Positions 55-56,322 of a DNA stretch of 64,000 nt are shown one piece after another; positions within the stretch are counted from its first letter, which is position 1, and every line of letters starts with the position of its first letter. The translations under genes and the position numbers were made by a program. Source of the stretch: Halobacillus massiliensis (lineage in GTDB: Bacteria > Bacillota > Bacilli > Bacillales > Halobacillaceae). Below the pieces are notes generated by a model that saw only the letters and a list, made by a program, of their open reading frames with translations, made no database searches and was not told the DNA's origin. The stretch spans positions 2,707,361 to 2,771,360 of the forward strand of contig NZ_LT800499.1 in NCBI RefSeq assembly GCF_900166625.1, written 5' to 3'.

Positions 55-217
55 GTTCCGTTTATACCATCAACAGTAAAGAGGCTGGGAAATGGCGAGA
101 CTCCTGCAGGGAAATAGAGCTAAGGTGAGATCCGCGAGTGCAACGAGCTAGCTCACCAGCTCCCCGCGGAAAGCGAGTTATTTCCCAGCCTCGTTCCTCT
201 TATACAGTAAACGGAAC
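55..217 (+). repeat. Type A palindromic repeat, copy 1 (complete, MITE-like)
   Basis: Complete copy of a dispersed imperfect palindrome. The core (81-192) begins GAGGCTGGGAAAT and ends ATTTCCCAGCCTC-like, so the ends pair. Inside are CTCCTGCAGGG, GGTGAGATCCGCGAG, CTAGCTCACC, CCCCGCGG and AAAGCGAG blocks. The core is bracketed by GTTCCGTTTA (55-64) and its exact inverse TAAACGGAAC (208-217), giving an element of about 163 bp with terminal inverted repeats. No target-site duplication is obvious. Confidence 0.85.
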
Positions 218-243
218 AGTTCATTCTCTTCATAAGTAAGAAA

Positions 244-380
244 GAGACACGGAAATGGTGAGACTCCTGCAGGGAGATAGAGCCAGGGTGAGATCCGCGA
301 GTTGAACGAGCTAGCTCACCGGCTCCCCGCGGAAAGCGAGCTATTTCCCAGCCTCGTTTCTCTTATACAGCAAACGGAAC
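244..380 (+). repeat. Type A palindromic repeat, copy 2
   Basis: Second tandem copy in the same orientation as copy 1. The core runs 244-355 and carries the CTGCAG, TCCGCGAG, CTAGCTCACC and CCGCGG blocks. It ends with AAACGGAAC at 372-380. It shares its left boundary with the right terminus of copy 1. Confidence 0.8.
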
Positions 381-404
381 AGCTCATTCTCTTCATAAGT
401 AAAA

Positions 405-484
405 AGAGACGCGGAAATGACGGGACTCCTGCAGAGAGATAAAGCCAGTATGAGATCTGCGAGTGTAATTAGCTGGCTCACCCA
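405..484 (+). repeat. Type A palindromic repeat, copy 3 (truncated)
   Basis: Third tandem copy. Only the left arm and apical part are present (GACTCCTGCAGAGAG, TGAGATCTGCGAG, AGCTGGCTCACC), and it breaks off before the CCGCGG/AAAGCGAG right arm. Several substitutions suggest it is the oldest of the three. Confidence 0.7.
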
Positions 485-570
485 AACTTAAAAACACCTC
501 AGCACAGTAGAAAATAAAGAGCCAAATCATGCTGTTAACACTGCCCCATAAGATCTCTTTTTAATAAACG

Positions 571-596
571 AAAAAGCAGCCTGGGCTGCTTTTTTT
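571..596 (+). terminator. Rho-independent terminator with no visible gene before it
   Basis: AAAAAGCAGC - CTGG loop - GCTGCTTTTTTT, a 10-bp stem followed by a T-run. No gene is seen on the plus strand in 1-570. It may end a transcript entering from outside the window, or mark the end of a gene displaced by the repeats. Confidence 0.7.
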
Positions 597-668
597 AATT
601 ACAATATTATCAATAGTTTCACAACATGTGAATTTTCTGTGAATTTAATTAAGCTGTATTAAAGCTTA

Positions 669-682
669 TGAAAACGCTTTAT
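669..682 (+). promoter_or_regulatory. Putative cre (CcpA) site upstream of the 2HCT symporter
   Basis: TGAAAACGCTTTAT matches the Bacillus cre consensus TGWAARCGYTWNCW at 13 of 14 positions. It ends 20 bp before the start codon at 703, a position suited to catabolite repression of a carboxylate transporter. Confidence 0.55.
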
Positions 683-702
683 TCATAAAAAGGAGTGAAA
701 AC

Positions 703-2025
703 ATGGCGAAAAGAGCTCAAGATTTAAAGGAACAACATCAGCATAATGTCAAGGAGATCCCGAACTCTAAGCAGGGAGTGAAGATTTTTGAACTGCCTGT
801 TCTCTGGTTTACTATTTTTGCAGCAATCACCGTCCTCTGCTTATACACCGGAAATCTGCCGGGTGGCATGATTGGAAGTCTACTGGTAATGATTGTTTTT
901 GGTGAACTGCTTGGTTGGATCGGTGACCGTACTCCAATCGTTAAAACATTTTTAGGCGGCGGGGCGATTATCGCTATTTTTGGTGCAGCTACTCTCGCTT
1001 ATGTCGGCTGGCTGCCAGAAGCTTCAATTACTTCCATGACAGAATTTATGAAAGACGGCGGATTTTTAAATTTCTATATTGCAGCACTTATAACCGGAAG
1101 TATTCTTGGTATGAACAAAGATATTTTGATTAAAGTAGGTTTACGTTATTTTGTGCCGATTTTTGGTGCGGTTATTGGTGCAGCTGCCATAGCAGCTCTC
1201 CTCGGTGCACTCGTTGGCTTTTCTTTGAGAGACGCGGTTTTAGTGATCACCATGCCAATTATGGGCGGAGGTATGGGCGCAGGTGCTGTCCCTATGAGCC
1301 AGCTTTATTCAGAATTAATGGGGAATGATCCATCCTACTATATTTCTATGCTCGTACCGGCTCTTGCCTTAGGTAACGTATTTGCCATCGTTCTTGCCAG
1401 TATGCTCAACTTGCTCGGCAACAAGTATCCTTCACTTACAGGTAATGGACAGCTTATCAGCGGCTTTCATTATAAAGAAACAAAACAGTCGTATGATATT
1501 CAAAAAATGGGCATTGGACTACTTGCAGCAATTACATTCTTTGCTTTAGGTTCACTGCTTGGTGACTTCATTCCACTTCACCCTTATGCTCTGATGATTA
1601 TTGCAGTAGCTGTAGCGAAAATTGCGAATATCATACCGCAAAGTATACTTGATGGCGCCAGTCAGTGGTATAAGTTCGTAGCGAGCAACTGGACATTTGC
1701 CTTGCTATTTGGAATTGGTATCGCCTATACGGATCTTGGGACTGTAATTGAAGCATTAACCCTTCAATATATTCTTACTGTCTTTGGGGTAGTACTTGGA
1801 GCCATTCTTGGCGCAGGTTTACTAGGAAAACTGGTTGGCTTTTATCCGATCGAGGCTGCGATTACAGCAGGTTTATGTATGGCAAACATGGGCGGTACTG
1901 GAGATGTTGCCGTTCTATCTGCTTCCAGGAGAATGGAGCTTATGCCATTTGCGCAAATATCCTCCCGACTTGGCGGTGCACTGATCTTACTGTTAGCGGG
2001 ATTAATCATCCCACTGTTTATGTAA
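703..2025 (+). CDS. 2-hydroxycarboxylate (malate/citrate) : Na+ symporter, 2HCT family
   Basis: Predicted 440-residue polytopic membrane protein that imports malate or citrate together with cations across the cytoplasmic membrane. Two family-typical glycine-rich re-entrant loop motifs are visible: PIMGGGMGAGAVPMSQ near residue 190 and ANMGGTGDVAVLSAS near residue 400. About 11 hydrophobic segments follow a hydrophilic N-terminus of about 30 residues. The start is an ATG with AAAAAGGAGTG seven bases upstream. A cre-like site lies just before the gene and a terminator just after, so it is probably monocistronic. Relatives are MaeN, CimH and CitS; the exact substrate cannot be told from sequence alone. 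Confidence 0.9.
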   Translation: MAKRAQDLKEQHQHNVKEIPNSKQGVKIFELPVLWFTIFAAITVLCLYTGNLPGGMIGSLLVMIVFGELLGWIGDRTPIVKTFLGGGAIIAIFGAATLAYVGWLPEASITSMTEFMKDGGFLNFYIAALITGSILGMNKDILIKVGLRYFVPIFGAVIGAAAIAALLGALVGFSLRDAVLVITMPIMGGGMGAGAVPMSQLYSELMGNDPSYYISMLVPALALGNVFAIVLASMLNLLGNKYPSLTGNGQLISGFHYKETKQSYDIQKMGIGLLAAITFFALGSLLGDFIPLHPYALMIIAVAVAKIANIIPQSILDGASQWYKFVASNWTFALLFGIGIAYTDLGTVIEALTLQYILTVFGVVLGAILGAGLLGKLVGFYPIEAAITAGLCMANMGGTGDVAVLSASRRMELMPFAQISSRLGGALILLLAGLIIPLFM

Positions 2026-2038
2026 AAATGAATATTTC

Positions 2039-2073
2039 AAAGAGAGCGTTGAATTTCAGCGCTCTCTTTTTTC
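2039..2073 (+). terminator. Terminator of the 2HCT symporter gene
   Basis: AAAGAGAGCG (2039-2048) pairs with CGCTCTCTTT (2060-2069) and continues into a T-run. It lies 14 bases after the stop codon. Confidence 0.85.
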
Positions 2074-2209
2074 TGTTCCTTCTAAGTTTCATAATTAACA
2101 GGAAGAAGAAGCGAGAGACGTTTCTTATGGATTTTAGAGTTACGGAACCTTAACGTAAGAGGACTAAATTATAGGATCTTCCTCCAACCGTATCCTTACG
2201 TTTCCACCA

Positions 2210-2278
2210 TCTCCACCTCCCCCGCTTAAAGGCGATTCATTTCCAAGCCTCTTCTCACTACACATGATAAACGGAACT
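2210..2278 (+). repeat. Type A repeat remnant (right arm only)
   Basis: A decayed right arm (CCCCCGCTTAAAGGCGATTC, then TTTCCAAGCCTC) followed at 2268-2277 by an intact TAAACGGAAC terminus. Otherwise the 500-bp gap 2026-2525 holds the terminator at 2039, a 23-nt segment (2144-2166) repeated inversely at 55914-55936, and the narK promoter region. Confidence 0.55.
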
Positions 2279-2455
2279 CCTTTTTCTTTATCACCAATGA
2301 GAAGAATTTTTAGTCATCTTTCATTATTTATTCCAAACAGATGATTTTTCCACATAATTTTTTCCATAAACTATGTAACCGCTTCACCTGGCATAAAGTC
2401 TAAATCACAAGCGTATCATCCAATTTGTAATTACTATAAGTTATGGAAGAAAACC

Positions 2456-2470
2456 TTACACAACTTGTGA
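2456..2470. promoter_or_regulatory. Weak palindrome upstream of narK
   Basis: TTACA-CAACT-TGTGA is an imperfect inverted repeat about 55 bp before the start of the nitrate/nitrite transporter. It could be an operator for an Fnr/Crp-like or redox regulator, but the match to any known consensus is poor. Confidence 0.25.
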
Positions 2471-2525
2471 CAGAGCTCTTAATATTTGAAATAATCAGCC
2501 TATTATAAAACATGGAGGACTGATT

Positions 2526-3995
2526 ATGGATAAAGAAGTGAGTCTGTATAAAGGAAATAAGAAAATTCTATTTATGACTACTTTTGCTTTTTTCTTAAGC
2601 TTTGTTGTTTGGTTCAATATGGCGCCTTTTGCCTCAACTATTCAAAAAGCATTACAGCTGTCAAATGAAGAAATTGCTGTGCTGCTTTCCATTAACGTAG
2701 CTCTTACAATTCCCGCAAGAATTATTATAGGTATGTTAGTGGATCGTTTTGGACCAAAACATGTTTATACCACCCTATTAATTTCTGTTAGTATTCCCTG
2801 CTTTTGGTTTGCTTTTGCCAATTCGTTCTGGCAGCTGTTTATGGCGCGTGCATTATTATCTGTGGTAGGTGCTGGTTTTGTTATTGGAATTCGTATGGTT
2901 TCTGAATGGTTTCCTGCCAAGCACATCGGGTTGGCAGAAGGAATTTATGGAGGCTGGGGAAATTTCGGGTCATCAGCCGCTGCATTTTCACTGCCGCTTC
3001 TAGCCTTATTGTTCGGTGGTGAAAGCGGTTGGCGCTATGCGATTGCTATAACCGGTATACTATGTATTGTCTATGCGGTTATTTATTTCAGATCCGTCGA
3101 AAATGCCCCTTCTGGAAAAGAATTTAAGAGACCGAAGCGAAGTGGTGCCATGGAAGTTACCAGCTACAAGGGCATGGCTGGATTGATTATTATGTCCATT
3201 CCCTTATATGCAGCCCTCGCATTAATCACATGGCAATTGAGCAACACTTCACTCATCTCTAATCAGATAGCTATCCTCATCTATGTTATCCTTGCTTCCG
3301 TTTATTTTTATAATGTTTATAAAATCTGGGCCGTCAATCGTGATCATTTAAGAAAAGGAGTTCCTAAAGAAGAGCAGTATTCTTTCAAACAAGTGGCTAT
3401 TTTGGATTTTGCCTATTTTATTACATTTGGATCTGAATTAGCCGTCATTTCAATGCTGCCTATGTTTTTTGAAGCTACCTTCAGCATGGGAGTAGCGGCT
3501 GCCGGCATGATTGCCAGCTCATTTGCTTTTATGAATCTTGTCGCAAGACCCGGGGGCGGATGGCTAAGCGACAAATTCGGAAGAAAGAAGACCCTTATCA
3601 TCTTACTTGGAGCTACTTCTGTGGCTTATCTGGGTATGGCTCAGATTGGATCTGACTGGTCTATTATTGCAGCTGTGCTGCTTACTATGACGTGTTCCTT
3701 TTTTGTACAAGCTGGAGAAGGTGCCGTCTTTTCTATGGTCCCTCTTGTAAAGAAACGAATGACCGGACAAATTGCCGGAATGGTAGGAGCTTATGGAAAT
3801 GTGGGATCGGTTCTTTTTCTAGCCATACTCGGGGTGCTTAATCCTTCTCTCTTCTTTCTAGGCATATCCATTATGGCTTTCTGCTGCTTTATCGCCTGTT
3901 TCTTCTTAAAGGAACCAGTAGTAGAACGAGCACCTGCTTTTCAGCCTGTGAAAGAACAGAATGCGAGAAAGTCCGGTGAAGAAGTGGCTATTTAA
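2526..3995 (+). CDS. narK: Nitrate/nitrite transporter, NNP family of MFS
   Basis: A 489-residue major facilitator with about 12 membrane spans that moves nitrate or nitrite across the cytoplasmic membrane. Both nitrate-signature loops of the family are visible: GGWGNFGSSAAA near residue 143 and MVGAYGNVGS near residue 420. The MFS motif DKFGRKK follows the loop near residue 350. The start is an ATG with TGGAGG eight bases upstream. No nitrate reductase or nitrite assimilation gene is in the window, so whether it imports nitrate or exports nitrite is open. The NarK assignment is to the family; a NasA-like role is equally possible. Confidence 0.85.
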   Translation: MDKEVSLYKGNKKILFMTTFAFFLSFVVWFNMAPFASTIQKALQLSNEEIAVLLSINVALTIPARIIIGMLVDRFGPKHVYTTLLISVSIPCFWFAFANSFWQLFMARALLSVVGAGFVIGIRMVSEWFPAKHIGLAEGIYGGWGNFGSSAAAFSLPLLALLFGGESGWRYAIAITGILCIVYAVIYFRSVENAPSGKEFKRPKRSGAMEVTSYKGMAGLIIMSIPLYAALALITWQLSNTSLISNQIAILIYVILASVYFYNVYKIWAVNRDHLRKGVPKEEQYSFKQVAILDFAYFITFGSELAVISMLPMFFEATFSMGVAAAGMIASSFAFMNLVARPGGGWLSDKFGRKKTLIILLGATSVAYLGMAQIGSDWSIIAAVLLTMTCSFFVQAGEGAVFSMVPLVKKRMTGQIAGMVGAYGNVGSVLFLAILGVLNPSLFFLGISIMAFCCFIACFFLKEPVVERAPAFQPVKEQNARKSGEEVAI

Positions 3996-4000
3996 TTTTA

Positions 4001-4035
4001 AAAAAGGTGATCTCTCAAAAAGAGATCACCTTTTT
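4001..4035. terminator. Bidirectional terminator between narK and the convergent Nmad3 gene
   Basis: AAAAAGGTGATCTCT (4001-4015) is perfectly complementary to AGAGATCACCTTTTT (4021-4035). The A- and T-rich ends allow termination on both strands of this convergent pair. Confidence 0.9.
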
Positions 4036-4961: not shown

Positions 4962-4962
4962 T

Positions 4963-5349: not shown

Positions 5350-5484
5350 GGATGAACCCTCACAGTTTGGCTGTAACTTCTTTCTCTACTTACTGGCAGA
5401 TTCCCAGCCTTCTCTCCAAGTAAACCAAATCCTTCATATGTTAAAATAGAAGAATACTGGAATGTGTTTAGGAGTGGGAGATAG

Positions 5485-6651
5485 ATGGACAAAAAAGACA
5501 TTGCCGGCATCCGCCGACAGCTGAAAACAGATAATGATTTATTAAAGATTACAGATATTTTTAACGTGTACATTATGAAGGAAACAACGGATATATACCA
5601 TCACCAGAGCCAGCCGTTTGAGATGCTTGACCGTGATCAGCAGGAGCTTTTCATGAATAATTTCAAAAAAATACTAACCGGCCAGCTCGATGAAAAACTA
5701 TTTGAACTAAAATTCCAGCGTGATACAGAAAATCACACACAGCTTATTTTACATAAAGGGCTCCTGAGCAATGATGTGGAAGACTGGAAGGCACAAATGC
5801 TGCAAATGACAGAAAAAATTTTAAAAGATCATCCTTATGAAAAAGATGTAGTGCTCACCTATATCCGTGCGGAGTATAGGAAGCCGATGAAAGCCCGAAA
5901 CGAAGAAGCAGAGGAAAGTGAACGGGATGCCGTTTACTCTAACCCCTTTATCCTTTGCAGTTTGAACAAAACCGAAGAACCAAAAAAAGAAATTCAATTC
6001 GATTATATTGAGAAAGAATTTAAATACAAAATTGAAGTAGATCCTGTGATTGACTTAAAGAACCCGATGACAGGCTTTCTTTTCCCTACCATTACGGATG
6101 GGGCTTCAGATGTCAATCATATTCTTTATTCAGCATCAAAAGCCAATGAACCAGATTACCGTTTTATCGAAGAAGTATTAAACGGCGAAGAAATCATGAC
6201 AGCAAAGGAAGACAAGGCAGTATTTGAAGAGGTTATTAAGGATGTTGTCGGTGACCAGTTGAACACCTCCACCCTCTCAAAAGTTTATGGAGAAATTAAC
6301 CGGGTTGTCGAAGAAAATGAAGACGATGAACCACCTAAACTTGACTATAAAGACGTAGAGCGGGTATTAACTCAAAGTGGTGAGCAAGTGGAACCTGACA
6401 GAATTAAAACCGCCTTTGAGCGAATTACGGACGATGAAACTTATGAACTGAAAGCCAGCAGTATCGTACCGAGATATAAATCCAAATCTATTAAAATCAA
6501 TACAAAAATTGCCAACATCTCCATAAGCCCGCAGGATCTGGAATATGTACGCCAGGTAAACTATAAAGGAAAAAGATGCATAATGATTGAAATCGAAGAA
6601 GATGCAGAAATTGACGGATTTAAAATGCTTCCGGAAGCTTTTGGTGAATGA
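5485..6651 (+). CDS. DUF4317 family protein
   Basis: A 388-residue acidic, soluble protein matching the Firmicute DUF4317 family, whose function is unknown. The N-terminus MDKKDIAGIRRQLKTDND is typical of the family. There is no signal peptide or membrane segment. Charged helical stretches dominate, and the C-terminal third has alternating basic (SIVPRYKSKSIKINTKIAN) and acidic sections. The start is an ATG after GGAGTGGGAG. The gene is monocistronic, closed by an exceptionally long perfect hairpin. Confidence 0.75.
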   Translation: MDKKDIAGIRRQLKTDNDLLKITDIFNVYIMKETTDIYHHQSQPFEMLDRDQQELFMNNFKKILTGQLDEKLFELKFQRDTENHTQLILHKGLLSNDVEDWKAQMLQMTEKILKDHPYEKDVVLTYIRAEYRKPMKARNEEAEESERDAVYSNPFILCSLNKTEEPKKEIQFDYIEKEFKYKIEVDPVIDLKNPMTGFLFPTITDGASDVNHILYSASKANEPDYRFIEEVLNGEEIMTAKEDKAVFEEVIKDVVGDQLNTSTLSKVYGEINRVVEENEDDEPPKLDYKDVERVLTQSGEQVEPDRIKTAFERITDDETYELKASSIVPRYKSKSIKINTKIANISISPQDLEYVRQVNYKGKRCIMIEIEEDAEIDGFKMLPEAFGE

Positions 6652-9430: not shown

Positions 9431-9540
9431 CTCTTATTCAGAGTGGTGGAGGGACTGGCCCTAAGAAACCCGGCAACCGATCAGAAGTGATTGTGGTGCT
9501 AATTCCAGCAGAGCAGCTTTAGTTCTGAAAAATAAGAGAG
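9431..9540 (+). promoter_or_regulatory. SAM-I (S-box) riboswitch aptamer
   Basis: The S-box signature AGAGTGGTGGAGGGACTGGC followed by CCTAAGAAACCCGGCAACC is intact. The P1 helix is closed by CTCTTATT (9431-9438) with AATAAGAG (9531-9538). The 3' P1 strand AATAAGAGAGGT (9531-9542) can alternatively pair with ACCTCTCTTATT (9555-9566), the expected antiterminator. S-adenosylmethionine binding should favour termination. It is the first of two riboswitches ahead of metE. Confidence 0.95.
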
Positions 9541-9553
9541 GTGCGTTTAGATA

Positions 9554-9580
9554 AACCTCTCTTATTTCGAGAGGTTTTTT
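9554..9580 (+). terminator. SAM-controlled terminator
   Basis: AACCTCTC (9554-9561) pairs with GAGAGGTT, then a run of T. It competes with the 12-bp antiterminator formed with the SAM aptamer P1 strand. Confidence 0.85.
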
Positions 9581-9605
9581 TAATGCCCAATAATTTAATA
9601 TCGTA

Positions 9606-9800
9606 GATCACTATGGTGCGGCCTTTAATTTTAAGGCTGCTTAAAAGGGAAGGCCGGTGAGAATCCGGCACGGTCCCGCCACTGTAATAGGGAGCATTCT
9701 GCTTTTGTGTCACTTTCTAAAATTTAGATGGGAAGGCGCAGGATGCAACGAACTTAAGTCAGGAGACCTGCCAAAGTGATTTCTCACTCAACCTACGGGA
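9606..9800 (+). promoter_or_regulatory. Cobalamin (AdoCbl) riboswitch aptamer
   Basis: Conserved B12-element blocks appear in order: AAAAGGGAA, GCCGGTGAGAATCCGGCAC, GGTCCCGCCACTGTAATAGG, and the B12 box AAGTCAGGAGACCTGCC near 9756-9772. It lies between the SAM-I expression platform and metE and is followed by its own terminator. When coenzyme B12 is plentiful it should switch off this B12-independent enzyme. Confidence 0.95.
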
Positions 9801-9893: not shown

Positions 9894-9923
9894 ATTTCCT
9901 AAAAAAATTCAGGAGGCATGCAT

Positions 9924-12224
9924 ATGATCAAAAGTTCAAATATCGGTTACCCGCGAATTGGAGAAAAGCGTGAATGGAAAAAAGCTTTAGAACGATTCTG
10001 GAAAGGTAATACATCAGAAAAAGAGCTTTTTAGTGAATTACAAACATTAAGAATTAACGACCTGAAGAAACAGAAAGAAGCCGGACTCGATTTAATTCCC
10101 ATTGGAGATTACAGCCTGTATGATCACGTTCTTGACACAGCCGTAATGTTCGGATTTATTCCAGAGAGGTTCAGACACCAGGACTCTTCTTCTTTGAAAA
10201 CTTACTTCGATATTGCCCGTGGAAGCAAAGAAGCCGTCGCTTCAGAAATGACGAAATGGTTCAATACAAATTATCACTATATCGTACCGGAAATTAGTGA
10301 GAATGATGAGCCTCGACTTACAGAAAATCGTCTCCTCCATTATTTTTTAGAAGCTAAGGATAAGGCTGGCATTATTGGCAAACCTGTTATTTTAGGACCC
10401 GTCAGCTTTTTGAAATTATCAAAAGGCTTCGAAAAGGAAGCTTTACCAAGACTGGTTAATCGACTTGTCCCTTTATACATACAGGTCCTCAAAGAACTCT
10501 ATGAAGCGGGTGCTGAGTGGGTACAAATGGATGAACCTGTATTAACTACCCAGATGAGCGATGAGGAGTTCAAGTTATTAGAAAGCGTTTATGAGAGAAT
10601 TAATGATGAAACGGAAAGCCTCCATATCCTTCTGCAAACATACTTTGAGGGAGTTGACCGCTATGAACAGATTATTTCTCTGCCAGTAGATGGAATCGGT
10701 CTTGATTTTATTCATGATGGCGGCGCTAATTTAGAAGCTATGAAAAAGTATGGATTTCCGAACAATAAAACGTTAGCAGCTGGTATTATTAACGGCCGTA
10801 ACATTTGGAAAACCGATCTCACGGCCAAACTGACAAAGCTTGAGATGATAACAAACCTTGTCGACAAAAACAGACTGATCATACAGCCCTCCTGCAGTTT
10901 ACTGCATGTTCCAGTTACGGTGAAGTCAGAGCAAAATTTAAAGCCTTCTTTAAAGAATGCCCTGGCTTTTGCAGATGAAAAACTTACAGAAATAAAACTC
11001 TTAGCTGATGGAATACATCATGGAAAGGAGCCAATCGCTGACAAATTGGACGAGCAGGCTGAGTACCTTAACAGCTTCTGGCACTCTGAGGCACGCACCA
11101 ACCCTTTCGTTCGGCAGGAAGTGCAGTTATGGGAAGAAACGGATCCCAAAAGAAATGCACCTTACTCAGAACGTCAAAAAAACCAGCAGGAATTTTTCGA
11201 ACTGCCTCTGCTTCCAACGACGACAATAGGAAGTCTCCCCCAAACAAATGAAGTCCGTCTGGCTCGTAGAAAGTGGCGAAAAGGGGAATGGGCGGATGAA
11301 AAGTATGAAGCTTTTATTAAGGAAAGCATGAATGAATGGATCAAGCGCCAGGAAGAAATAGGCCTGGATGTACTCATTCACGGGGAGTTCGAGCGAAATG
11401 ATATGGTCGAATTTTTCGGTGAAAAATTGGCCGGCTTTGCATTTACACAGTATGCCTGGGTACAATCTTACGGTTCGCGCTGTGTTAAACCTCCTATTAT
11501 TCACGGTGATATCTCCTTAACAGAACCAATGACCGTTAAAGAAATTGCCTATGCTCAGTCATTGACTGACAAACCGGTCAAAGGAATGCTCACAGGTCCA
11601 ATTACCATTTTAAACTGGTCTTTCGTTCGCGACGACATTAGCAGATTTGCTGTTACAAAGCAAATTGCCTTAGCCTTACAAAAAGAAATAAGGTTTTTGG
11701 AAGAAGAAGGCATCCATATGATACAAGTCGATGAACCTGCCTTAAGGGAAGGACTGCCGCTTAAACCAGATAAACAGCAGGAATACCTTGATCAAGCTGT
11801 TTATGCATTTAAGCTCGCAACATCTGCAGTCCAGAATAAAACCCAGATCCATACACATATGTGTTACTCAGAGTTTGGAGAGATTATGGAGGCGATCGAT
11901 CGATTGGATGCAGATGTAATATCTATAGAAGCCGCACGCAGCCACGGAGAACTAATTACAGATTTTGAGAAAACAAACTACGAAAAAGAAATCGGACTTG
12001 GTGTCTATGATATCCATAGTCCGCGTGTGCCAGAGGCTTCAGAAATGGAAAGTTATATTCACCGGGCTTTAGCAGTCCTGCATCCCTCTCAGTTTTGGGT
12101 GAACCCGGATTGCGGACTGAAGACAAGGGGGACCAGTGAAACAGTAGAATCTTTAAGAAACATGGTAAGAGCCGCCCGTTATGTGCGCGAGAACATCAAA
12201 AAAGCTGGTGATCCTGTTCACTAA
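9924..12224 (+). CDS. metE: Cobalamin-independent methionine synthase
   Basis: A 766-residue cytoplasmic zinc enzyme that transfers a methyl group from 5-methyltetrahydropteroyltriglutamate to homocysteine, the last step of methionine synthesis. Visible landmarks are SSNIGYPRIGEKREWKKA at the N-terminus, LPTTTIGSLPQT starting the catalytic domain, the zinc ligands in THMCYSEF and NPDCGLKTRG, and VQMDEPVLTT/IQVDEPALRE repeats of the two barrel domains. ATG 9924 is chosen because AGGAGG lies seven bases upstream; the in-frame ATG at 9918 directly abuts that site. Expression is governed by tandem SAM-I and cobalamin riboswitches. Confidence 0.97.
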   Translation: MIKSSNIGYPRIGEKREWKKALERFWKGNTSEKELFSELQTLRINDLKKQKEAGLDLIPIGDYSLYDHVLDTAVMFGFIPERFRHQDSSSLKTYFDIARGSKEAVASEMTKWFNTNYHYIVPEISENDEPRLTENRLLHYFLEAKDKAGIIGKPVILGPVSFLKLSKGFEKEALPRLVNRLVPLYIQVLKELYEAGAEWVQMDEPVLTTQMSDEEFKLLESVYERINDETESLHILLQTYFEGVDRYEQIISLPVDGIGLDFIHDGGANLEAMKKYGFPNNKTLAAGIINGRNIWKTDLTAKLTKLEMITNLVDKNRLIIQPSCSLLHVPVTVKSEQNLKPSLKNALAFADEKLTEIKLLADGIHHGKEPIADKLDEQAEYLNSFWHSEARTNPFVRQEVQLWEETDPKRNAPYSERQKNQQEFFELPLLPTTTIGSLPQTNEVRLARRKWRKGEWADEKYEAFIKESMNEWIKRQEEIGLDVLIHGEFERNDMVEFFGEKLAGFAFTQYAWVQSYGSRCVKPPIIHGDISLTEPMTVKEIAYAQSLTDKPVKGMLTGPITILNWSFVRDDISRFAVTKQIALALQKEIRFLEEEGIHMIQVDEPALREGLPLKPDKQQEYLDQAVYAFKLATSAVQNKTQIHTHMCYSEFGEIMEAIDRLDADVISIEAARSHGELITDFEKTNYEKEIGLGVYDIHSPRVPEASEMESYIHRALAVLHPSQFWVNPDCGLKTRGTSETVESLRNMVRAARYVRENIKKAGDPVH

Positions 12225-17665: not shown

Positions 17666-17719
17666 ATTCTTATTAAGTAAAGAAATGGTGTTTCTTTTAA
17701 TATGTGTGAGGAGTAAAAC

Positions 17720-17842
17720 AGCTGGGAAACTTCCCGCGGGGTCGTTAAGCTATCGCTTCACTCGCGTATTTCACCATGCCTCTGTTTTTCCTGCAGGAGT
17801 CTCTCAATTTCCCAGCTTCTTTATTAATAGTGGAAACGGAAC
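17720..17842 (-). repeat. Type A palindromic repeat, copy 4 (divergent)
   Basis: Minus-orientation copy. The core 17720-17818 begins GCTGGGAAAC and ends TTTCCCAGC, with CCGCGGGG and CCTGCAGGAGTCTC preserved. The apical stem GGTGAG/CTCACC is decayed. AAACGGAAC follows at 17834-17842. It lies just after sspH. Confidence 0.7.
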
Positions 17843-20844: not shown

Positions 20845-20979
20845 GAGGAAGGGAGATAACTTGCTTTTTAGCGGGGAGCCGGTGAGCTAGCTCGTTCCAC
20901 TCGCGGATCTCACCATGGCTCTATCTCCCTGCAGGAGTCTCGCCATTTCCCAGCCTCTTTAAATTAAATGGGGAAAACG
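20845..20979 (-). repeat. Type A palindromic repeat, copy 5
   Basis: Minus-orientation copy. The core 20845-20957 contains GCGGGGAGCCGGTGAGCTAG, CTCGCGGATCTCACC, CTCCCTGCAGGAGTCTCGCC and TTTCCCAGCCTC. AAAACGGAAC follows. A degenerate left terminus GTTTCATTTAC precedes it near 20820. It starts 37 bases after the alcohol dehydrogenase gene. Confidence 0.8.
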
Positions 20980-21059
20980 GAACGCTGTAATCTCAGTAAG
21001 CTCTCTAATGGGAACGATCCTATTTTCTTAAATATTTCCGTTACTCCAAAAAACATAAA

Positions 21060-21204
21060 GGGCCGGGGGAAACGGCGAGACTCCTATGGGAGGGTAGAAC
21101 AAGGTGAGATCCCGGAGGGCTAAAAGCCCGAGGAAGCTCACCGTTCGCCCATGGAAAGCGAGTTGTTTCCCCAGGCCCGATTCTCTTTATCAAGAAAAAC
21201 GGAA
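21060..21204 (+). repeat. Type B palindromic repeat, copy 1
   Basis: First copy of the related family. It starts GGGCCGGGGGAAACGGCGAG and continues CTCCTATGGGAGG, GGTGAGATCCCGGAGGGC, then AAAAGCCCGAGG, GCTCACCG, CCCATGGAAAGCGAG, and ends GTTTCCCCAGGCCC. AAAACGGAAC follows at about 21195-21204. TTTCCGTTAC at 21036 may be its left terminus. Confidence 0.8.
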
Positions 21205-21279
21205 CAAAGGAATTCCCTTCAACTTTCTATCGAATTTATCCTCACTATTCCATTGTTTCTTTACTTCAATAAACATAAA

Positions 21280-21383
21280 GGGCCAGAGGAAACGGCGAGA
21301 CTTCTATGGGAGGATAGAACAGGGTGAGCCCATGGAAAGCGAGTCTTTCCCCAGGCCCGGTTTTCTATTAAGGTAAACGGAAC
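21280..21383 (+). repeat. Type B palindromic repeat, copy 2 (apical stem deleted)
   Basis: Same ends as copy 1 (GGGCCAGAGGAAACGGCGAG to TTTCCCCAGGCCC), but the stretch from GATCCCGGAGG to the GTTCGCC just before CCCATGG is missing. The whole GGGC-AAAA-GCCC apical hairpin is therefore lost. TAAACGGAAC ends it at 21374-21383. Confidence 0.75.
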
Positions 21384-25537: not shown

Positions 25538-26188
25538 ATGAATAACATCTCCGTTTCAGCAATGATTGAATCTTTTAAAGAACTTTTTCCAAAAGAAGCT
25601 TCGATTGCCGTCTCTGATGAAAGACAATTTATTTACTACAAACCAAGCAGGCAAGTCGATTTAAAAATTAAACCCGGCGACAAAATTAATGAAAATACCG
25701 TTACCTTTGAAGCGTTAACAGGAAAAAAGAAAACATCCAAACATATGAACGCTCAGGTATTTGGAACCCCTTATTTTGGAACAAGCGTGCCTACCATTGA
25801 TGCAGACGGACACATAGGTTGTGTGACAGCTATCCTTCCATCAAAGCAGCAGCGTTTTTTGTCAACCTTCTTAACACTTCTAATGGAAAATCACTGGCTT
25901 CCCGTCCCATATAGAGAAATCATGTATTTGGAAGCACGCAATCGAAAAACATGGGTACAGTCAGAACGGGGAATGGGAACACATAAGTATAGCTTAAGCG
26001 AGTTAGAATTGTATTTACCAGACGACGGTTTTCTCCGCTGTCATCGATCTTATATTGTGAATGTAAACTATATTGAGGAGATCCAGCCGGATTCTCATTC
26101 TACTTTTCTATTGATTATGAAGGATGGATCCAAAATTCCAGTCAGCCAGACGTATGCCAGCCTGTTTCGAAAGATTCTCTCCTTCTAA
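25538..26188 (+). CDS. LytTR-type transcriptional regulator with N-terminal sensor region
   Basis: A 216-residue DNA-binding protein. The C-terminal LytTR domain (about 118-216) has the YREIMYLEARNRKTWV start, SLSELELYLPDDGFLRCHRS and IVNVNYIEEI blocks. The N-terminal 115 residues look like a PAS/Cache-like ligand-binding fold, with GTPYFGTSVPTIDADGHIG near residue 75. This is not a response-regulator receiver domain. The ATG follows GAGGAGG. It lies 122 bases upstream of a CoA-transferase gene in the same direction, and the pair probably forms a sensor-target unit. Motif AACGAT(T/C)AT occurs before both genes. Confidence 0.75.
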   Translation: MNNISVSAMIESFKELFPKEASIAVSDERQFIYYKPSRQVDLKIKPGDKINENTVTFEALTGKKKTSKHMNAQVFGTPYFGTSVPTIDADGHIGCVTAILPSKQQRFLSTFLTLLMENHWLPVPYREIMYLEARNRKTWVQSERGMGTHKYSLSELELYLPDDGFLRCHRSYIVNVNYIEEIQPDSHSTFLLIMKDGSKIPVSQTYASLFRKILSF

Positions 26189-26259
26189 TTCTGCTTTATG
26201 CTGACATTTAGCTGGTTCGTACTAAATATAAGCCTTTTCATCCATATAGCCGTGACCAT

Positions 26260-37875: not shown

Positions 37876-37922
37876 CTAAGAAGTATGGGAAGCGGGATCA
37901 CTTCGCTTTTAATAGAGAAGCA

Positions 37923-38040
37923 GGCCGGGGGAAACGACTCGCTTTCCATAGGCGAACGGTGAGCTTCCTCGGGCTTTTAGCCCTCCGGGATCTCACCCTG
38001 TTCTATCCTCCCATAGGAGTCTCGCCGTTTCCCCCGGCCC
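37923..38040 (-). repeat. Type B palindromic repeat, copy 3
   Basis: Minus-orientation copy. It starts AGGCCGGGGGAAACGACTCG, carries CGGTGAGCTTCCTCGGGC, TTTTAGCCCTCCGGGATC and CCTCCCATAGGAGTCTCGCC, and ends TTTCCCCCGGCCC. CGGAAC follows at about 38060, in a decayed terminus. Confidence 0.8.
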
Positions 38041-38161
38041 TTTTTGAAAATAAGTATGATCGGAACTTGAAGTTCTTCTTGTGCTATTCAATAACTAATA
38101 ATAGATTTCACAGTAAAGAGAACAACCTTATACCTTATCAAAAGTGAGAGTGAGTAAGCAT

Positions 38162-51331: not shown

Positions 51332-51343
51332 TTCCAAACAAAA

Positions 51344-51371
51344 AAGCTGTCTCGCTCGTCGGAGACAGCTT
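51344..51371. terminator. Terminator between LysR and symporter genes
   Basis: AAGCTGTCTC (51344-51353) pairs with GAGACAGCTT (51362-51371). The A-run at 51337-51345 gives a T-run on the minus strand for the symporter transcript. Confidence 0.8.
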
Positions 51372-51435
51372 ACTCTTTTCATCCTATCGAAAATCCTTTT
51401 TTGAGCTGGATTCCCTTATGGTGACTTACTTTTTT

Positions 51436-53025
51436 TCATTGAGCCGCATCAACATTCTCTTTCTTCCATGCTTCTTTTTGCTTTTCACGCGTCAGAAGGC
51501 TGACGCTTACGAAAATAATTGTTGAAATAGGCAGAGAGTATAATAAAGGATCTATATGTGTCCAAGGATATGGAAGTAAAAAATCGCGGCCGAACAAAGC
51601 CTGTGAAAGACCAAATGCTGCAGACTGAGAACTTTTCAGAAATAAAAAACCAAATACACTTATTAGGAATCCGGCAATAATACTGGCAGCTGCCCTTTGT
51701 TTTGTAGCTCCCTTCCAAAATAATGCTCCTGTTAAAGCCGGCAAGAAACCTGCTGCACAGATACCAAACCAGAAGGCTGTCGCCTGAGCAATAATTCCGC
51801 CTGGAAGCAAATAAGCCAAAATTACTGCGAGCACCATTCCGACAATAACCCCAAAGCGATTTGGACTGATTTTCCCTCCGAAAATCCTTCTCACACCAAG
51901 GGTATGAAGGATATCTTCTCCAAAGGAAGATGCCTGAACATGGATGAGGGAGCTGACTGTTGAAATCGTTGCAGAAAGAAGGGTAAGCGTAAACAGGTAA
52001 ACAAACCAATTCGGCATAATATCATTAATCAGCCGGGGGATGATAAGGTCTGTATTTCCTTCAGCTGCCTGAATGGCAAGCTGGCTGGACGTTTCCATAA
52101 AATAAACATTACTGAGGGGACCAATCATATAAGCGGCACCAGCCATAAAAAATATAAAAATTCCACCAACGATCACTGACCTGTAAAGAGAGCGGTCACT
52201 TGATACCGTCATGCTTCTCATGACAAGCTGCGGCTGTGCAAGAACCCCAATTCCTACACCTAATATCATAGTACTGACAAGTGTCCACCACATGGGAGAC
52301 CAGAGGTCGGGCATGCTCATCCAGCCATTATGTCCATCTGCTGCAAGATTGTCAGGCACCATACTTCCTAATGTGTTTAAAGCCTTGTGACCATCGAACA
52401 GGCCCCCCACTGCCTGATAAGTTACAAATAGAAATAGCACCATGCCTAAAAGCATAATGACGGCTCCAAAGGCATCTGTATACATCACCGCTTTAATCCC
52501 GCCAGTGATTACATAAACGGCTACAATTACCGCAAGCAGCAGGAGTGCCGCGTTAAAATTCATCGCCAGCGATTCCTGCAGAAACCTTCCTCCTCCAATA
52601 AGTACTATACTCGTATAAGCGGGCATAAATATAAAAATCATCGAACCGGCAAATATAGTGATAAATTTCGAGTCATAATACTTCCCTAAAAAAGTTGGAA
52701 ACGTAGAAGCATTGATTTTTAAAGACATTTGCCGGATTCTTTTCCCAAACACAGCGAACGCCACGAATATTCCTAATACGATATTTAAAAAAGCGAGCCA
52801 TAAGAGTCCCATTCCATAAACTGCGGCAACGCCGCCGAAGCCTACTAGCGCTGATGTACTGATAAAAGTAGCTCCATAGGAAAGTGCCATAATAATAGAG
52901 TTTGTATTACGTCCCCCGACAAGATAATCTTCAGCTGTGACTGTTTTCTTATAGCCATAATAGGCAAGAATAGTCATGACACCGATATAGACCGCAACGA
53001 GTGGAAGCAATATCGCAAGATTCAT
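51436..53025 (-). CDS. Sodium:solute symporter (SSS family), probable 4-hydroxyphenylacetate carrier
   Basis: A 529-residue Na+-coupled importer with about 13 membrane spans. SSS motifs include the DYLVGGRNTNSI region (residues 33-44), ALSYGATFISTSALVGFGG, TDAFGAVIMLLGM and LSATISTVSSLIHVQASSF near residue 350 (sodium-site serines). Its start overlaps the stop of a 38-residue accessory gene (ATGA). Substrate is inferred only from its position between the hpa operon regulator and hpaF. Urea, proline or acetate transport are alternatives in this family. A perfect cre site lies upstream. Confidence 0.85.
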   Translation of the reverse strand: MNLAILLPLVAVYIGVMTILAYYGYKKTVTAEDYLVGGRNTNSIIMALSYGATFISTSALVGFGGVAAVYGMGLLWLAFLNIVLGIFVAFAVFGKRIRQMSLKINASTFPTFLGKYYDSKFITIFAGSMIFIFMPAYTSIVLIGGGRFLQESLAMNFNAALLLLAVIVAVYVITGGIKAVMYTDAFGAVIMLLGMVLFLFVTYQAVGGLFDGHKALNTLGSMVPDNLAADGHNGWMSMPDLWSPMWWTLVSTMILGVGIGVLAQPQLVMRSMTVSSDRSLYRSVIVGGIFIFFMAGAAYMIGPLSNVYFMETSSQLAIQAAEGNTDLIIPRLINDIMPNWFVYLFTLTLLSATISTVSSLIHVQASSFGEDILHTLGVRRIFGGKISPNRFGVIVGMVLAVILAYLLPGGIIAQATAFWFGICAAGFLPALTGALFWKGATKQRAAASIIAGFLISVFGFLFLKSSQSAAFGLSQALFGRDFLLPYPWTHIDPLLYSLPISTIIFVSVSLLTREKQKEAWKKENVDAAQ

Positions 53026-53138
53026 CCCTCTCCCCCTCCTTTATTCCACATCACGGCACCGTACACGATACAAACGATTGGAGCTGCTATTGTACCAAAC
53101 CACGCAAAGCCCACCCAAAAATCATCAAAACCGAGCAT
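53022..53138 (-). CDS. Symporter small accessory protein
   Basis: A 38-residue peptide beginning MLGFDDFWVGFAWF and ending VYGAVMWNKGGGEG, with one transmembrane helix. It has the characteristic M-L-G-x-D-D-x-W-V start and W-N-K-G end of the tiny subunits found immediately upstream of SSS symporters. It is too short for most ORF finders. The ATG follows AGGAGGAA by eight bases. The stop overlaps the symporter ATG by four bases, so the two proteins are translationally coupled. Confidence 0.8.
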   Translation of the reverse strand: MLGFDDFWVGFAWFGTIAAPIVCIVYGAVMWNKGGGEG

Positions 53139-53204
53139 ATAAATTCCTCCTTTTGGCTTGTTTAATAATAGAGGGATAGTGTTTTAAAACAAAATCCACC
53201 TACA

Positions 53205-53218
53205 AGTAAACGCTTACA
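53205..53218 (-). promoter_or_regulatory. Perfect cre (CcpA) site before the symporter unit
   Basis: Minus strand TGTAAGCGTTTACT matches TGWAARCGYTWNCW at all 14 positions. It lies 67 bases upstream of the accessory-protein start, so CcpA repression of substrate uptake is likely. Confidence 0.75.
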
Positions 53219-53319
53219 AATTATTCTGAAATATGAAACAATTTCAGATTACCACTTGCTTTTTTATTTGATAAATACAATATTTGTAGCCTTAAGGGAC
53301 GAAATTTATATACTTATAA

Positions 53320-53345
53320 AAAAACAGGCCCTGTGGCCTGTTTTT
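53320..53345 (-). terminator. Terminator of hpaG1-hpaG2-hpaF
   Basis: AAAAACAGGCC (53320-53330), loop CTGT, GGCCTGTTTTT (53335-53345). It lies 35 bases past the hpaF stop codon and separates it from the symporter promoter. Confidence 0.85.
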
Positions 53346-53379
53346 AGTAATGCTGAAAAAAAATTCTCTTGTCCAGCCA

Positions 53380-53760
53380 TTATTTAAACCTTTCATGGAT
53401 ATTATTCATTTTATAGGTAGCATGCTGAAACTCGGCAAGTTCGAGGGATAATGCGAAAAAGTGGTCTTTTGCATAGGGTCCCGTATGCTTTTTTAATACA
53501 GAAAAGATACGCTCACACACTTCTTTTTTATCCTCTTCCTTTCGTCCGCTCCCTATTTTTACAATAGCATGAAGAAATGCATCATCTTCTTTTCCATCCG
53601 CAATTTGATAGTAATTGACTTCGTGAGCTCTAGAACGAATACCGCCGGTTGGAAACATGTCCTTACGCTCGATGAGTACATCATTGATACTTTTAAGAAT
53701 CTCCTGGATGTCGACATGTTTTAAAAGGTTATCGGTATATTCCAAAATAACATGAGGCAT
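53380..53760 (-). CDS. hpaF: 5-carboxymethyl-2-hydroxymuconate delta-isomerase
   Basis: A 126-residue tautomerase-superfamily enzyme that shifts the double bond of 5-carboxymethyl-2-hydroxymuconate. Pro2 (MPHVILEYTDNL), exposed after removal of Met1, is the expected catalytic base. GGIRSRAHEVNYYQIADG and AIVKIGSGRKEEDKK are family blocks. The ATG follows AAGGAGGGG. It is the third gene of the hpaG1-G2-F unit; the gap to hpaG2 is 11 bases. Confidence 0.93.
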   Translation of the reverse strand: MPHVILEYTDNLLKHVDIQEILKSINDVLIERKDMFPTGGIRSRAHEVNYYQIADGKEDDAFLHAIVKIGSGRKEEDKKEVCERIFSVLKKHTGPYAKDHFFALSLELAEFQHATYKMNNIHERFK

Positions 53761-53771
53761 GTTTCCCCTCC

Positions 53772-54506
53772 TTAATAAACCGTATTTTGCAGCCGGCCGA
53801 TTCCTTCTATTTCGGTGATTACTTCATCCCCGGCTTTCGTGTCAATCGTTCCTTTAGGAGTTCCCGTTAAAATAACATCACCTGGATTAAGAGTCATAAA
53901 GCTGCTCAAGTATTCAATGAGGGCGGGAATACTGAAAATCATATCCTTTGTGGATCCCTCTTGCACTTTGCTGCCATTAACATATGTTCTTAATTGCAGA
54001 TTCATCGGGTCCTCTATATCTTCACAGTTGACCAGCCACGGACCAATCGGAGTGCTGGCGTCTCTATTTTTCACTCTTAAATTAGGACGGTAGTAGTTTT
54101 CCAGGTAATCTCTAAAGGCATAATCATTGGCAATGGTGTATCCTGAAATAAAATGATAAGCCTCAGCTTCACTAACTTGTTTCGCTTGATGCCCGATAAC
54201 AACCGCCAGTTCACATTCGTAATGCATATTTGTGACATCTTCCGGCCTTTTTGTAAAACCTCTGTGCCCGATAAAGGTATTCGGACCTTTAAGAAAAACT
54301 AGAGGCTCTTCTGGTGCATTAAATTCCAGTTCACTGGCATGGTCGAAGTAATTAAGCCCTAATGCAAAGCATGTTCTCGCTTCTAATGGCGGCAGCCAGA
54401 CAACTTGCTGTTCACTGACAATTTGCCCATTAGACAGTTTAATCCCTTCTTCTGTATAGAACGCCTCAAAAATTTTCCCCTCGTACGCTACGCGCGCCTT
54501 TTTCAT
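53772..54506 (-). CDS. hpaG2: OPET decarboxylase / HHDD isomerase subunit 2 (HpaG C-half homologue)
   Basis: A 244-residue fumarylacetoacetate-hydrolase-fold enzyme corresponding to the C-terminal half of E. coli HpaG. Diagnostic blocks are CFALGLNYFDHASELEF, EEPLVFLKGPNT, the metal-site MHYECELAVVIGHQA and the FRDYLENYYRPNLRVKNRD segment. FMTLNPGDVILTGTPKGT closes the fold. The ATG follows GAGGAGGG and overlaps the hpaG1 stop by four bases. With hpaG1 it decarboxylates and isomerises the C8 triacid to the C7 diacid. Confidence 0.9.
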   Translation of the reverse strand: MKKARVAYEGKIFEAFYTEEGIKLSNGQIVSEQQVVWLPPLEARTCFALGLNYFDHASELEFNAPEEPLVFLKGPNTFIGHRGFTKRPEDVTNMHYECELAVVIGHQAKQVSEAEAYHFISGYTIANDYAFRDYLENYYRPNLRVKNRDASTPIGPWLVNCEDIEDPMNLQLRTYVNGSKVQEGSTKDMIFSIPALIEYLSSFMTLNPGDVILTGTPKGTIDTKAGDEVITEIEGIGRLQNTVY

Positions 54507-55249
54507 AGCCGGTCCCTCCTCACGCTGTTTTCCAGACGACCCACCTCATCGATTTCTATAGTGATTAAGTCACCGTCTCCAGCTAATGGAGGATGTGCTC
54601 CAGTTCCTGCAATTAAAAGGTCTCCTGCATTAAGCGTCATAAATTCAGTTACATCACGAAGCAGTTCAGGAATAGTACGTACCAGGCGGCTCGTGTGAAA
54701 ATCCTGCATTAGTTCGTTATTTATAAAAACTTTTATGCCTAAGTTATGCGGGTCGCTGACTGCTGCTGCCGGTACAATCCACGGCCCCACCGGACAGAAT
54801 CCGTCTCTTGCCTTTTCTTTAACAGCCGGACGAAACAGACTGTTATGCGGAAGGCTTACATCATTCACAATAGTAAACCCTTCGATATAATCAAATGCGT
54901 CTTTAGCTGAAACTTTTTCAGCTTTTATTCCTATTACGATACCAAGTCCGGCGGATATTTGAATTTGATTTGAATTTAAAGGAAGCGGAATGGCTGACTG
55001 GTGTCCAGTTAATGTATTAATTGGTTTAATGTAAAGAACCGGGGCCTTAGGCGGCTGGTTATAAGGGGCTTCTTTAAATCTCTCCTTCATAATCTCTACT
55101 TCAAAACGGTCGTTAAGGAGAGTTCCATACACTGTTCCATTAACGGGTGAGGCCCAGGAATGAATAAAATTATTATGAGTATTTAGAAGCTGAGCATCAA
55201 TTTCTTCTAAAAAGTGGTGTCCATTGATTCGCGCTTTTACTTTTGTCAT
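54503..55249 (-). CDS. hpaG1: OPET decarboxylase / HHDD isomerase subunit 1 (HpaG N-half homologue)
   Basis: A 248-residue FAH-fold protein corresponding to the N-terminal half of E. coli HpaG. Matching blocks are APYNQPPKAPVLYIKPINTL, SAGLGIVIGIKAEKVSAKDA, FTIVNDVSLPHNSLFRPAVK and KARDGFCPVGPWIV. The metal ligand motif HYE-x-E of hpaG2 is replaced here, as in the N-half of HpaG. The ATG follows AAGGAGGCG. It is the first gene of hpaG1-G2-F, which has its own promoter region upstream of 55249. Confidence 0.88.
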   Translation of the reverse strand: MTKVKARINGHHFLEEIDAQLLNTHNNFIHSWASPVNGTVYGTLLNDRFEVEIMKERFKEAPYNQPPKAPVLYIKPINTLTGHQSAIPLPLNSNQIQISAGLGIVIGIKAEKVSAKDAFDYIEGFTIVNDVSLPHNSLFRPAVKEKARDGFCPVGPWIVPAAAVSDPHNLGIKVFINNELMQDFHTSRLVRTIPELLRDVTEFMTLNAGDLLIAGTGAHPPLAGDGDLITIEIDEVGRLENSVRRDRL

Positions 55250-55432
55250 TAAATTTCGCCTCCTTTGTTTTTTAAATATTCAATAATTATAAAATATCAT
55301 TTGCTTATTTATATTAGAAATATGTATAACCTTTATATTCTATATGATTAAAGTATTATGAGTTAAAGAGTTAATATTTTCTGTTGAGAAGATTCTTTTT
55401 AATGGGCGGGTATTAATTATAAGGAGAGAAAA

Positions 55433-55542
55433 GAGCTGGGAAATGACTCGCTTTCCGCGGGGAGCCGGTGAGCTAGCTCGTTGCACTCGCGGATCTCACT
55501 CTGGCTCTATCTCCCTGCAGGAGTCTTGCCATTTCCCTTCCT
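55433..55542 (-). repeat. Type A palindromic repeat, copy 6
   Basis: First of three tandem minus-orientation copies. GAGCTGGGAAATGACTCGCT begins it, and CTGCAGGAGTCTTGCC and ATTTCCCTTCC end it. It has the full apical part with CTAGCTCGTTGCACTCGCGG. The right neighbour unit repeats almost exactly after about 160 bases. Confidence 0.85.
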
Positions 55543-55567
55543 TTTCTCTGAGAAGGGAAAAAAGACG

Positions 55568-55703
55568 GTTCCGTTTCCGGTAGTAAGAGAAACGCGGCTG
55601 GGAAATAACTCGCTTTCCGCGGGGAGCCGGTGAGCTAGCTCGTTGCACTCGCGGATCTCACCCTGGCTCTATCTCCCTGCAGGAGTCTCGTCATTTCCCT
55701 TCC
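55568..55703 (-). repeat. Type A palindromic repeat, copy 7
   Basis: Second tandem copy. The left terminus GTTCCGTTTCC lies at 55568-55579; the core is 55595-55703. The spacer carrying AAAAAAGACGGTTCCGTTTC is the same as that after this copy, showing that whole units were duplicated. Confidence 0.85.
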
Positions 55704-55729
55704 TTTTCTCTAAGAAGGGAAAAAAGACG

Positions 55730-55893
55730 GTTCCGTTTCCGGTAGTAAGAGAAACGCGGCTTGGAAACAACTCGCTTTCCGCGGGGAGCCGGTGAGCTAG
55801 CTCGTTGCACTCGCGGATCTCACCATGGCTCTATCTCCCTGCAGGAGTCTCGCCATTTCCCAGCCTCTTTAACGTTGATGGTGTAAACGGAAC
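55730..55893 (-). repeat. Type A palindromic repeat, copy 8 (complete, MITE-like)
   Basis: Third tandem copy. GTTCCGTTTCC (55730-55740) and GTAAACGGAAC (55883-55893) form terminal inverted repeats around the core 55757-55867. Total length is 164 bp, the same as copy 1 at the other end of the window and in opposite orientation. Confidence 0.85.
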
Positions 55894-55956
55894 ACTATAT
55901 TTGGACTCTCCCTTAGTCCTCTTACGTTAAGGTTCCCTTAATCAATTAATCATAAA

Positions 55957-56075
55957 GGGCCGGGGGAAACAACGAGACTCCTATGGGAGAAAAGAACAGG
56001 GTAAGATCCCGGAGGGCGAAAAGCCCGAGGAAGCTTACCGTTCGCCCATGGAAAGCGAGTTGTTTCCCCTGGCCC
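55957..56075 (+). repeat. Type B palindromic repeat, copy 4
   Basis: GGGCCGGGGGAAACAACGAG to TTTCCCCTGGCCC, with apical GGGC-GAAAA-GCCC and CCCATGGAAAGCGAG intact. The right terminus is altered (GTAAACGAAAA). Confidence 0.85.
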
Positions 56076-56149
56076 TGTTCTCTTTATCAAGGTAAACGAA
56101 AAATCGGTATTTCTTTCAACTTTCTATCAAATTTATTGTCACTATTCCA

Positions 56150-56322
56150 TGTTTCTTTACTTTAATAAACATAAAGGGCCGGGGGAAACGGCGAGACTCC
56201 TATGGGAGGATAGAACAGGGTGAGATCCCGGAGGGCGAAAAGCCCGAGGAAGCTCACCGTTCTCCCATGGAAAGCGAGTTGTTTCCCCTGGCCCGGTTCT
56301 CTTTATCCAAGGTAAACGGAAC
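56150..56322 (+). repeat. Type B palindromic repeat, copy 5 (complete)
   Basis: The core 56176-56295 has all type B blocks. TAAACGGAAC ends it at 56313-56322. GTTTCTTTAC just upstream is the likely degenerate left terminus. The region 55250-56376 thus consists almost entirely of repeat copies plus the hpaG1 promoter. Confidence 0.85.

Follow-up and report, generated by a model that had tools for sequence, protein, structure and literature searches.

The long imperfect palindromes that recur in the genome of Halobacillus massiliensis probably belong to a gene-less MITE family of Bacillus relatives that carries an old, covarying hairpin and is moved in trans by an IS1595-type transposase. As a rule, MITEs are decayed insertion sequences whose interior tells little. 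The present element is of a known kind in being a MITE; unlike an ordinary one, it has an old covarying core, its interior covaries and has unpaired motifs that hardly vary across the families of an order, and the larger form has been seen as a divergent pair only. In the mechanism proposed here, the palindromes would form the core of the MITE, a DNA transposon without genes whose ends are recognised by an IS1595-family DDE transposase supplied in trans, and insertion would take place into AT-rich intergenic DNA.

Copies in the window and their paired architecture

The initial annotation of the window (the whole 64-kb stretch of DNA that was analysed) had listed 13 palindromes of two types, A and B, built on a common plan, together with a remnant of type A. 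Profile models built for A and B recovered all 13, each no more than a few bases from the noted place, and each model also matched units of the other type, which upholds the common plan. The remnant near 2210 is confirmed in part: 2125-2167 matches the spacer at 55913-55955 at 81% and an A-type end can be followed by eye to about 2275, but no model hit was obtained there at E 0.001. Intact units fold as a single long imperfect hairpin, and an Rfam search of the window at gathering score returned three riboswitches only, with no match to the palindromes. The features are listed below, all hairpins having been placed by profile search.

1-78, plus strand: spacer of a composite (35-202 matches 55746-55913)
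79-198, plus strand: A hairpin
242-361, plus strand: A hairpin, outer tandem copy
404-482, plus strand: A hairpin, truncated outer copy
2125-2275, minus strand: remnant, spacer piece and A-type end (sequence match and eye; no model hit)
17715-17821, minus strand: A hairpin, decayed, alone, 53 bits
20842-20959, minus strand: A hairpin, core
20960-21053, no strand: inner spacer of a composite, between core A and core B
21054-21186, plus strand: B hairpin, core
21274-21366, plus strand: B hairpin, outer copy with the apex deleted (two hits)
37914-38046, minus strand: B hairpin, alone
55429-55545, minus strand: A hairpin, outer copy
55588-55707, minus strand: A hairpin, outer copy
55750-55869, minus strand: A hairpin, core
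55870-55950, no strand: inner spacer of a composite, between core A and core B
55951-56083, plus strand: B hairpin, core
56170-56302, plus strand: B hairpin, outer copy

The B half of the composite whose spacer lies at 1-78 would be found upstream, in an N run of the genome record (C2:2705114-2707360). Across 1,231,360 bases of the window's genome, the two models detected 277 units (140 A and 137 B) in 90 clusters, in a sample biased in that nearly all stretches were picked for BLAST hits and the copies in exactly repeated segments were counted each time; six arbitrary 20-kb tiles of the same genome contained no unit. In 80 of the 90 clusters, A and B each form half of a divergent composite, with B reading leftward, A reading rightward and a spacer between them that measures 87-94 bp in 69 of the 80 when extended to the model ends. 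Extra units sit outside this core pair in the same orientation as their core neighbour and show more decay, the median bits being 128 in core units vs 84 in the others for A and 140 vs 68 for B. Among the 187 neighbouring pairs within clusters of the window's genome, 80 are divergent, 107 tandem and none convergent. The 94 loci from relatives have 66 neighbouring pairs, every one of them divergent and none convergent, and 57 single hairpins; in two 400-kb stretches of Thalassobacillus, 13 of 17 clusters and 15 of 19, respectively, are divergent pairs and the remaining ones single. Promoter-like signals in the spacers showed no excess over shuffles.

Some hairpins mark the start of exact or near-exact tandem duplications of 3.1-3.4 kb. 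Their interpretation as a transposon flanked by hairpins was rejected; since the readable intervals carry differing chromosomal genes and the others are N runs, assembly trouble at the palindromes seems likelier.

Similar elements in other Bacillaceae, which the initial annotation had mentioned, were found by both BLAST and pattern searches of relatives. A BLAST search with one composite gave matches in 42 of 61 genomes, which comprised the window's own and others of its genus, family and order, and among the matches listed, those beyond the nearest species fall mainly within the B hairpin. A pattern of 34 bases taken from the 3′ half is present at no fewer than 74 loci, the named genomes being Halobacillus, Thalassobacillus and one Bacillus. 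No match was obtained when phages and plasmids were searched with a B unit.

A covarying fold and its favoured strand

A count of compensatory changes bears out the covarying structure claimed at the outset: a consensus of 23 pairs was drawn over 65 sequences, and both sides have changed in 19 of the 23. The alignment was derived from 373 hits, which gave 272 cores and were thinned to 78, of which 15 irregular sequences were excluded by hand and the remaining 63 were aligned together with two more copies from the window. Pairing cells amount to 93.2% and the covariation score to 0.499, compared with 30-48% and 0.041-0.112, respectively, when partners are slid by 1-3 columns, and none of 500 shuffles reached the observed value on any measure, in a comparison where the structure is favoured over its slid versions by having been drawn from the same alignment and where related sequences are not independent. 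Few columns of the alignment are as constant as those of the unpaired AGACTCC and GGAAAG motifs.

Template switching between the arms readily occurs in long palindromes, and such copying of arm onto arm could yield covariation by mutation with no selection on the fold. This source of the covariation appears quite unlikely, as the unpaired motifs are nearly invariant whereas arm-to-arm copying would tend to remove mismatches, and a wobble bias confined to one strand is not an obvious outcome of it. Such a bias is present: on the strand as drawn, non-Watson-Crick pairs comprise 84 G-T and 19 A-C, one column giving 33 of the 84, and the fold therefore seems important on the outward-reading strand. 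The palindromy and intergenic location of the copies would also suit a DNA-level site comparable to BIMEs, for instance a cruciform or a binding site for gyrase or a nucleoid protein; with a one-strand bias that is unexpected if the two strands of a cruciform matter equally, this seems highly improbable.

In the window's genome, G-T pairs exceed A-C pairs in core copies (88 vs 47 in A, 58 vs 26 in B), while the other copies have no such bias (154 vs 179 in A, 121 vs 136 in B). When rare variants only are counted, the bias is gone in core A (36 vs 36) and weak in core B (37 vs 21). A bias that is limited to core copies and weak or absent in rare variants fits selection on spreading lineages better than selection on every resident copy. 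The covarying structure read by the initial annotation is supported, but selection acting on individual resident copies is not, as neither the non-core copies nor the rare variants of core A show a strand bias of mismatches. Overall, the sequence comparisons suggest that the hairpin shape has been kept over deep evolution and may have a job, perhaps in RNA.

Inverted ends, target duplications and the candidate transposase

The initial reading as a structured repeat was right as to structure, but the mobile nature that the elements display in relatives, with ends and duplications, had gone unseen. Two Thalassobacillus genomes (G016 and G011) are 90-96% identical and collinear across approximately 326 of 400 kb, and a minimum of four hairpin pairs occur in one but not in the other, where the counterpart site contains little or nothing. 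At other sites one of the two genomes has a partial copy, which indicates that internal deletion occurs too. One copy of 619 bp starts with GGCTCTGTTAAA, ends with TTTAACAGAGCC and has ATTTTTTA on either side, and the site in the sister genome is empty. Full copies in relatives have 28-bp inverted repeats beginning GGCTCTGTTAAA and an AT-rich target duplication of 8 bp.

Most hairpin copies in relatives are without recognisable ends. The 28-base end GGCTCTGTTAAACTTTGTTGTTGATTTT was found with up to two mismatches in 6 of 41 genomes, all from outside Halobacillus, and across the order a 27-base form with up to one mismatch was found in 12 of 397 genomes; at up to six mismatches, ends accompany 18 of 94 hairpin loci, Halobacillus among them. 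The two 400-kb stretches of Thalassobacillus contain 3 and 5 end matches vs 17 and 19 hairpin clusters. Conversely, a hairpin match lies near close end matches at 26 of 30 loci (E up to 1, the weakest at 12 bits) and at 25 of 30 loci of a second set (E up to 0.1), three places being common to both sets.

Duplications were counted in the 48 distinct elements, from 61 loci, in which both ends could be recognised at up to nine mismatches per end. The 8-bp duplication is exact in 25, has one mismatch in 13 and more mismatches in 10, so that 38 of the 48 have at most one mismatch, compared with 0.87 expected when the left flank of one element is paired with the right flank of another. Element lengths fall at 166-192 bp in 25 of the 48 and at 546-687 bp in 11, the size clusters near 183 bp and 620 bp corresponding to one hairpin and to the divergent pair, respectively. 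No IS-type ORF of at least 150 aa was located wholly inside paired ends in the 30 loci with the hairpin search at E up to 1. The elements of relatives thus have the inverted ends, fixed-length duplication, filled and empty sites and lack of an own transposase gene by which MITEs are recognised.

In their inverted palindrome doublets, many copies, intergenic sites and compensatory changes, these elements resemble the REPINs and BIMEs of proteobacteria, and on that reading would be moved by a Y1 tyrosine transposase (RAYT); they differ from those systems as described in PMC3116915 in that their hairpins are approximately 100 nt long, that the elements of relatives have inverted ends and 8-bp duplications and that no RAYT lies beside them. 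A Y1_Tnp match is present in 48 of 61 genomes, as a single gene in most Halobacillus. However, long inverted ends and 8-bp duplications fit a DDE enzyme, 6 of 42 hairpin-bearing genomes have no Y1 match, and 24 of 26 Y1 loci have no hairpin model hit, the other two having one at 1.6 and 3.6 kb (the models are those of the window species, which distant copies could escape). Failing on flanking, dependence and insertion signature, RAYT was rejected as the mobiliser, and a REPIN-like origin is very unlikely. The sole Y1_Tnp match in the window's genome is interrupted by two stops.

ISL3 elements make an 8-bp duplication. ISL3 was rejected as the mobiliser, its PF01610 domain being found in 2 of 10 genomes at loci without paired ends of the MITE type. 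The IS1595 family offers a better candidate for the enzyme acting in trans on the MITE. Among seven IS1595 loci, two (L298 and L335) have both similar ends and exact 8-bp duplications: L298, of the Halobacillus group, measures 1999 bp, with 23 and 24 of 28 end positions identical and the duplication AATTCTTT, and L335 measures 1571 bp, with 20 and 21 of 28 identical and the duplication ATTCCATT. The genome of L335 also carries the MITE (L299). A third locus (L297) has one such end, a fourth (L334) a different candidate end only, and the remaining three (L333, L336 and L337) no end of the MITE type. IS1595 members usually generate 8-bp duplications and have a single transposase gene, according to the excerpted text of PMC8101967, and A/T-rich 8-bp repeats are given for one member in the excerpt of PMC12561309; the GG tip of their ends and their AT-rich 8-bp duplications, as so described, resemble those of the MITE. 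The differences are that the MITE has no transposase gene and that its conserved hairpin interior was not found in IS loci, a hairpin search of L297 and L298 giving no match. The IS1595 gene (PF12762) was detected in 1 of 11 genomes in one search and 4 of 13 in another, and since most genomes searched now lack the gene, its source may be transient or elsewhere.

Around the window's own copies, no such inverted ends or target duplications were found, and the sample of the window's genome (less one 20-kb tile) had no ends at up to six mismatches. GTTCCGTTT and AAACGGAAC were rejected as true ends of the elements of this species, their flanks having no target duplication. In another genome (G004), 70 kb collinear with the window (68-82% identical) gave no model hit, and at the slot of the 55429-56302 cluster a decayed hairpin is discernible by eye. 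Outside those 70 kb, two intergenic slots hold composites in both genomes with reversed orientation, and one composite is present in G004 and absent from the window's genome. We infer that the A/B composites of the window represent an older branch of the MITE family, the ends of which have been eroded or replaced.

Gene context, possible role and significance

None of the 90 clusters lies mostly within an ORF. By simple ORF calls, with ORFs more than 40% inside an element removed, convergent genes flank 33 of the 81 occupied gaps vs 101 of the 545 others, and divergent genes flank 3 of the 81 vs 143 of the 545. Copies may be tolerated 3′ of genes and lost from promoters. The preference for convergent gaps, the covariation of the fold and the one-strand excess of G-T over A-C, core copies included, would also agree with an RNA or terminator-like element whose copies are kept by the host for their effect on adjacent genes, mobility being incidental. 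Nevertheless, copies come and go between close genomes, none is hit by the models in the collinear stretch of G004, and the bias disappears in non-core copies and in the rare variants of core A and is weak in those of core B, which makes such host selection an unlikely explanation.

Under the preferred account of a MITE moved in trans, spreading lineages would have retained the outward-strand fold and the unpaired AGACTCC and GGAAAG motifs. With its two hairpins diverging, the pair would let a transcript from either side exit through one hairpin in its favoured sense, and we therefore prefer, as the least certain step, a role in which this orientation-independent 3′ structure may end or protect read-through RNA. 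A more far-reaching view, tentative and somewhat doubtful, is that the MITE serves as the vehicle of an ancient, order-wide structured RNA (or single-strand DNA), a hairpin whose unpaired motifs hardly vary and that is recognised by a host factor shared among Bacillus relatives, divergently paired, orientation-independent in RNA and open to optional inserted modules.

Two repeats of Bacillus were compared by description only: bcr1 of the Bacillus cereus group, an intergenic mobile repeat listed among bacterial MITEs in the excerpt of PMC3733652, and Bhal-1 of Bacillus halodurans, a stem-loop repeat family of 74 bp and 36 copies in that of PMC2267715. Bhal-1 could be part of the hairpin MITE family. 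A search of open-licence literature retrieved no recognised description of the hairpin MITE, and the family is apparently so far undescribed. The ends, the target duplications and the two candidate parent elements make direct tests of mobility and of hairpin function possible, and they give an identity to an intergenic repeat that is very numerous in Halobacillus and Thalassobacillus.

Inserts within the hairpin

An insert of 58-62 nt occupies a single fixed position in the hairpin, the long imperfect palindrome of A and B units, with GAGACTCC on one side and TGYGGGA on the other, and was seen at nine places in Thalassobacillus and in genomes of two other families. All seven of its strong profile matches in 800 kb of Thalassobacillus (two 400-kb stretches) lie within or adjoining hairpins, and no strong profile match was found across 1.23 Mb of the Halobacillus massiliensis genome. 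This insert may be an optional structural module or else a site-specific parasite. A palindromic insert of 124 nt, with three strong profile matches within the same 800 kb, interrupts the hairpin at the nearly invariant GGAAAG, and a second GGAAAG closes it (four places).

Inserts in hairpins of relatives (locus, with position in the locus after the colon)
58-62 nt insert: L171, L236, L244, L253, L266, L273, L281, L282, L322
124-nt palindromic insert: L177:92, L201:4819, L253:11619, L273:2035

A palindrome resembling the 124-nt insert forms tandem repeats in a relative partly collinear with the window (L146, about 5700-6100).

Composite orientation and the Y1_Tnp gene

Composites, divergent B and A pairs around a spacer, are present in the same intergenic slots of two species in opposite orientation, which may mean either that the element inverted where it stood or that one slot took insertions more than once.

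Slots with oppositely turned composites (H. massiliensis contig C2, compared with L146 and L147)
25740-26203
about 88700-89240

The sole match of this genome to the transposase domain Y1_Tnp (L028:9840-10470; C2:941872) is interrupted by two stops; matches also occur in ten further genomes of the Halobacillus group, most of which have it as one open gene.

Duplications and gaps at hairpins

Hairpins mark the start of tandem duplications of 3.1-3.4 kb whose copies are 99.97-100% identical, and repeated hairpin sequence flanks several N runs; both probably reflect assembly trouble at palindromes.

Tandem duplications (C2; examples among others)
1752795-1759433
2507004-2513282
2566985-2573731

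Repeats that are 98-100% identical form an extended tandem array at C2:1135839-1137709 (period 63 bp, length divisible by three), which perhaps lies inside a gene.

Tandem riboswitches in the window

At window 9431-9789, upstream of an ORF at 9918-12224, a SAM riboswitch is arranged in tandem with one for cobalamin, which suggests that one gene may be controlled by both ligands.
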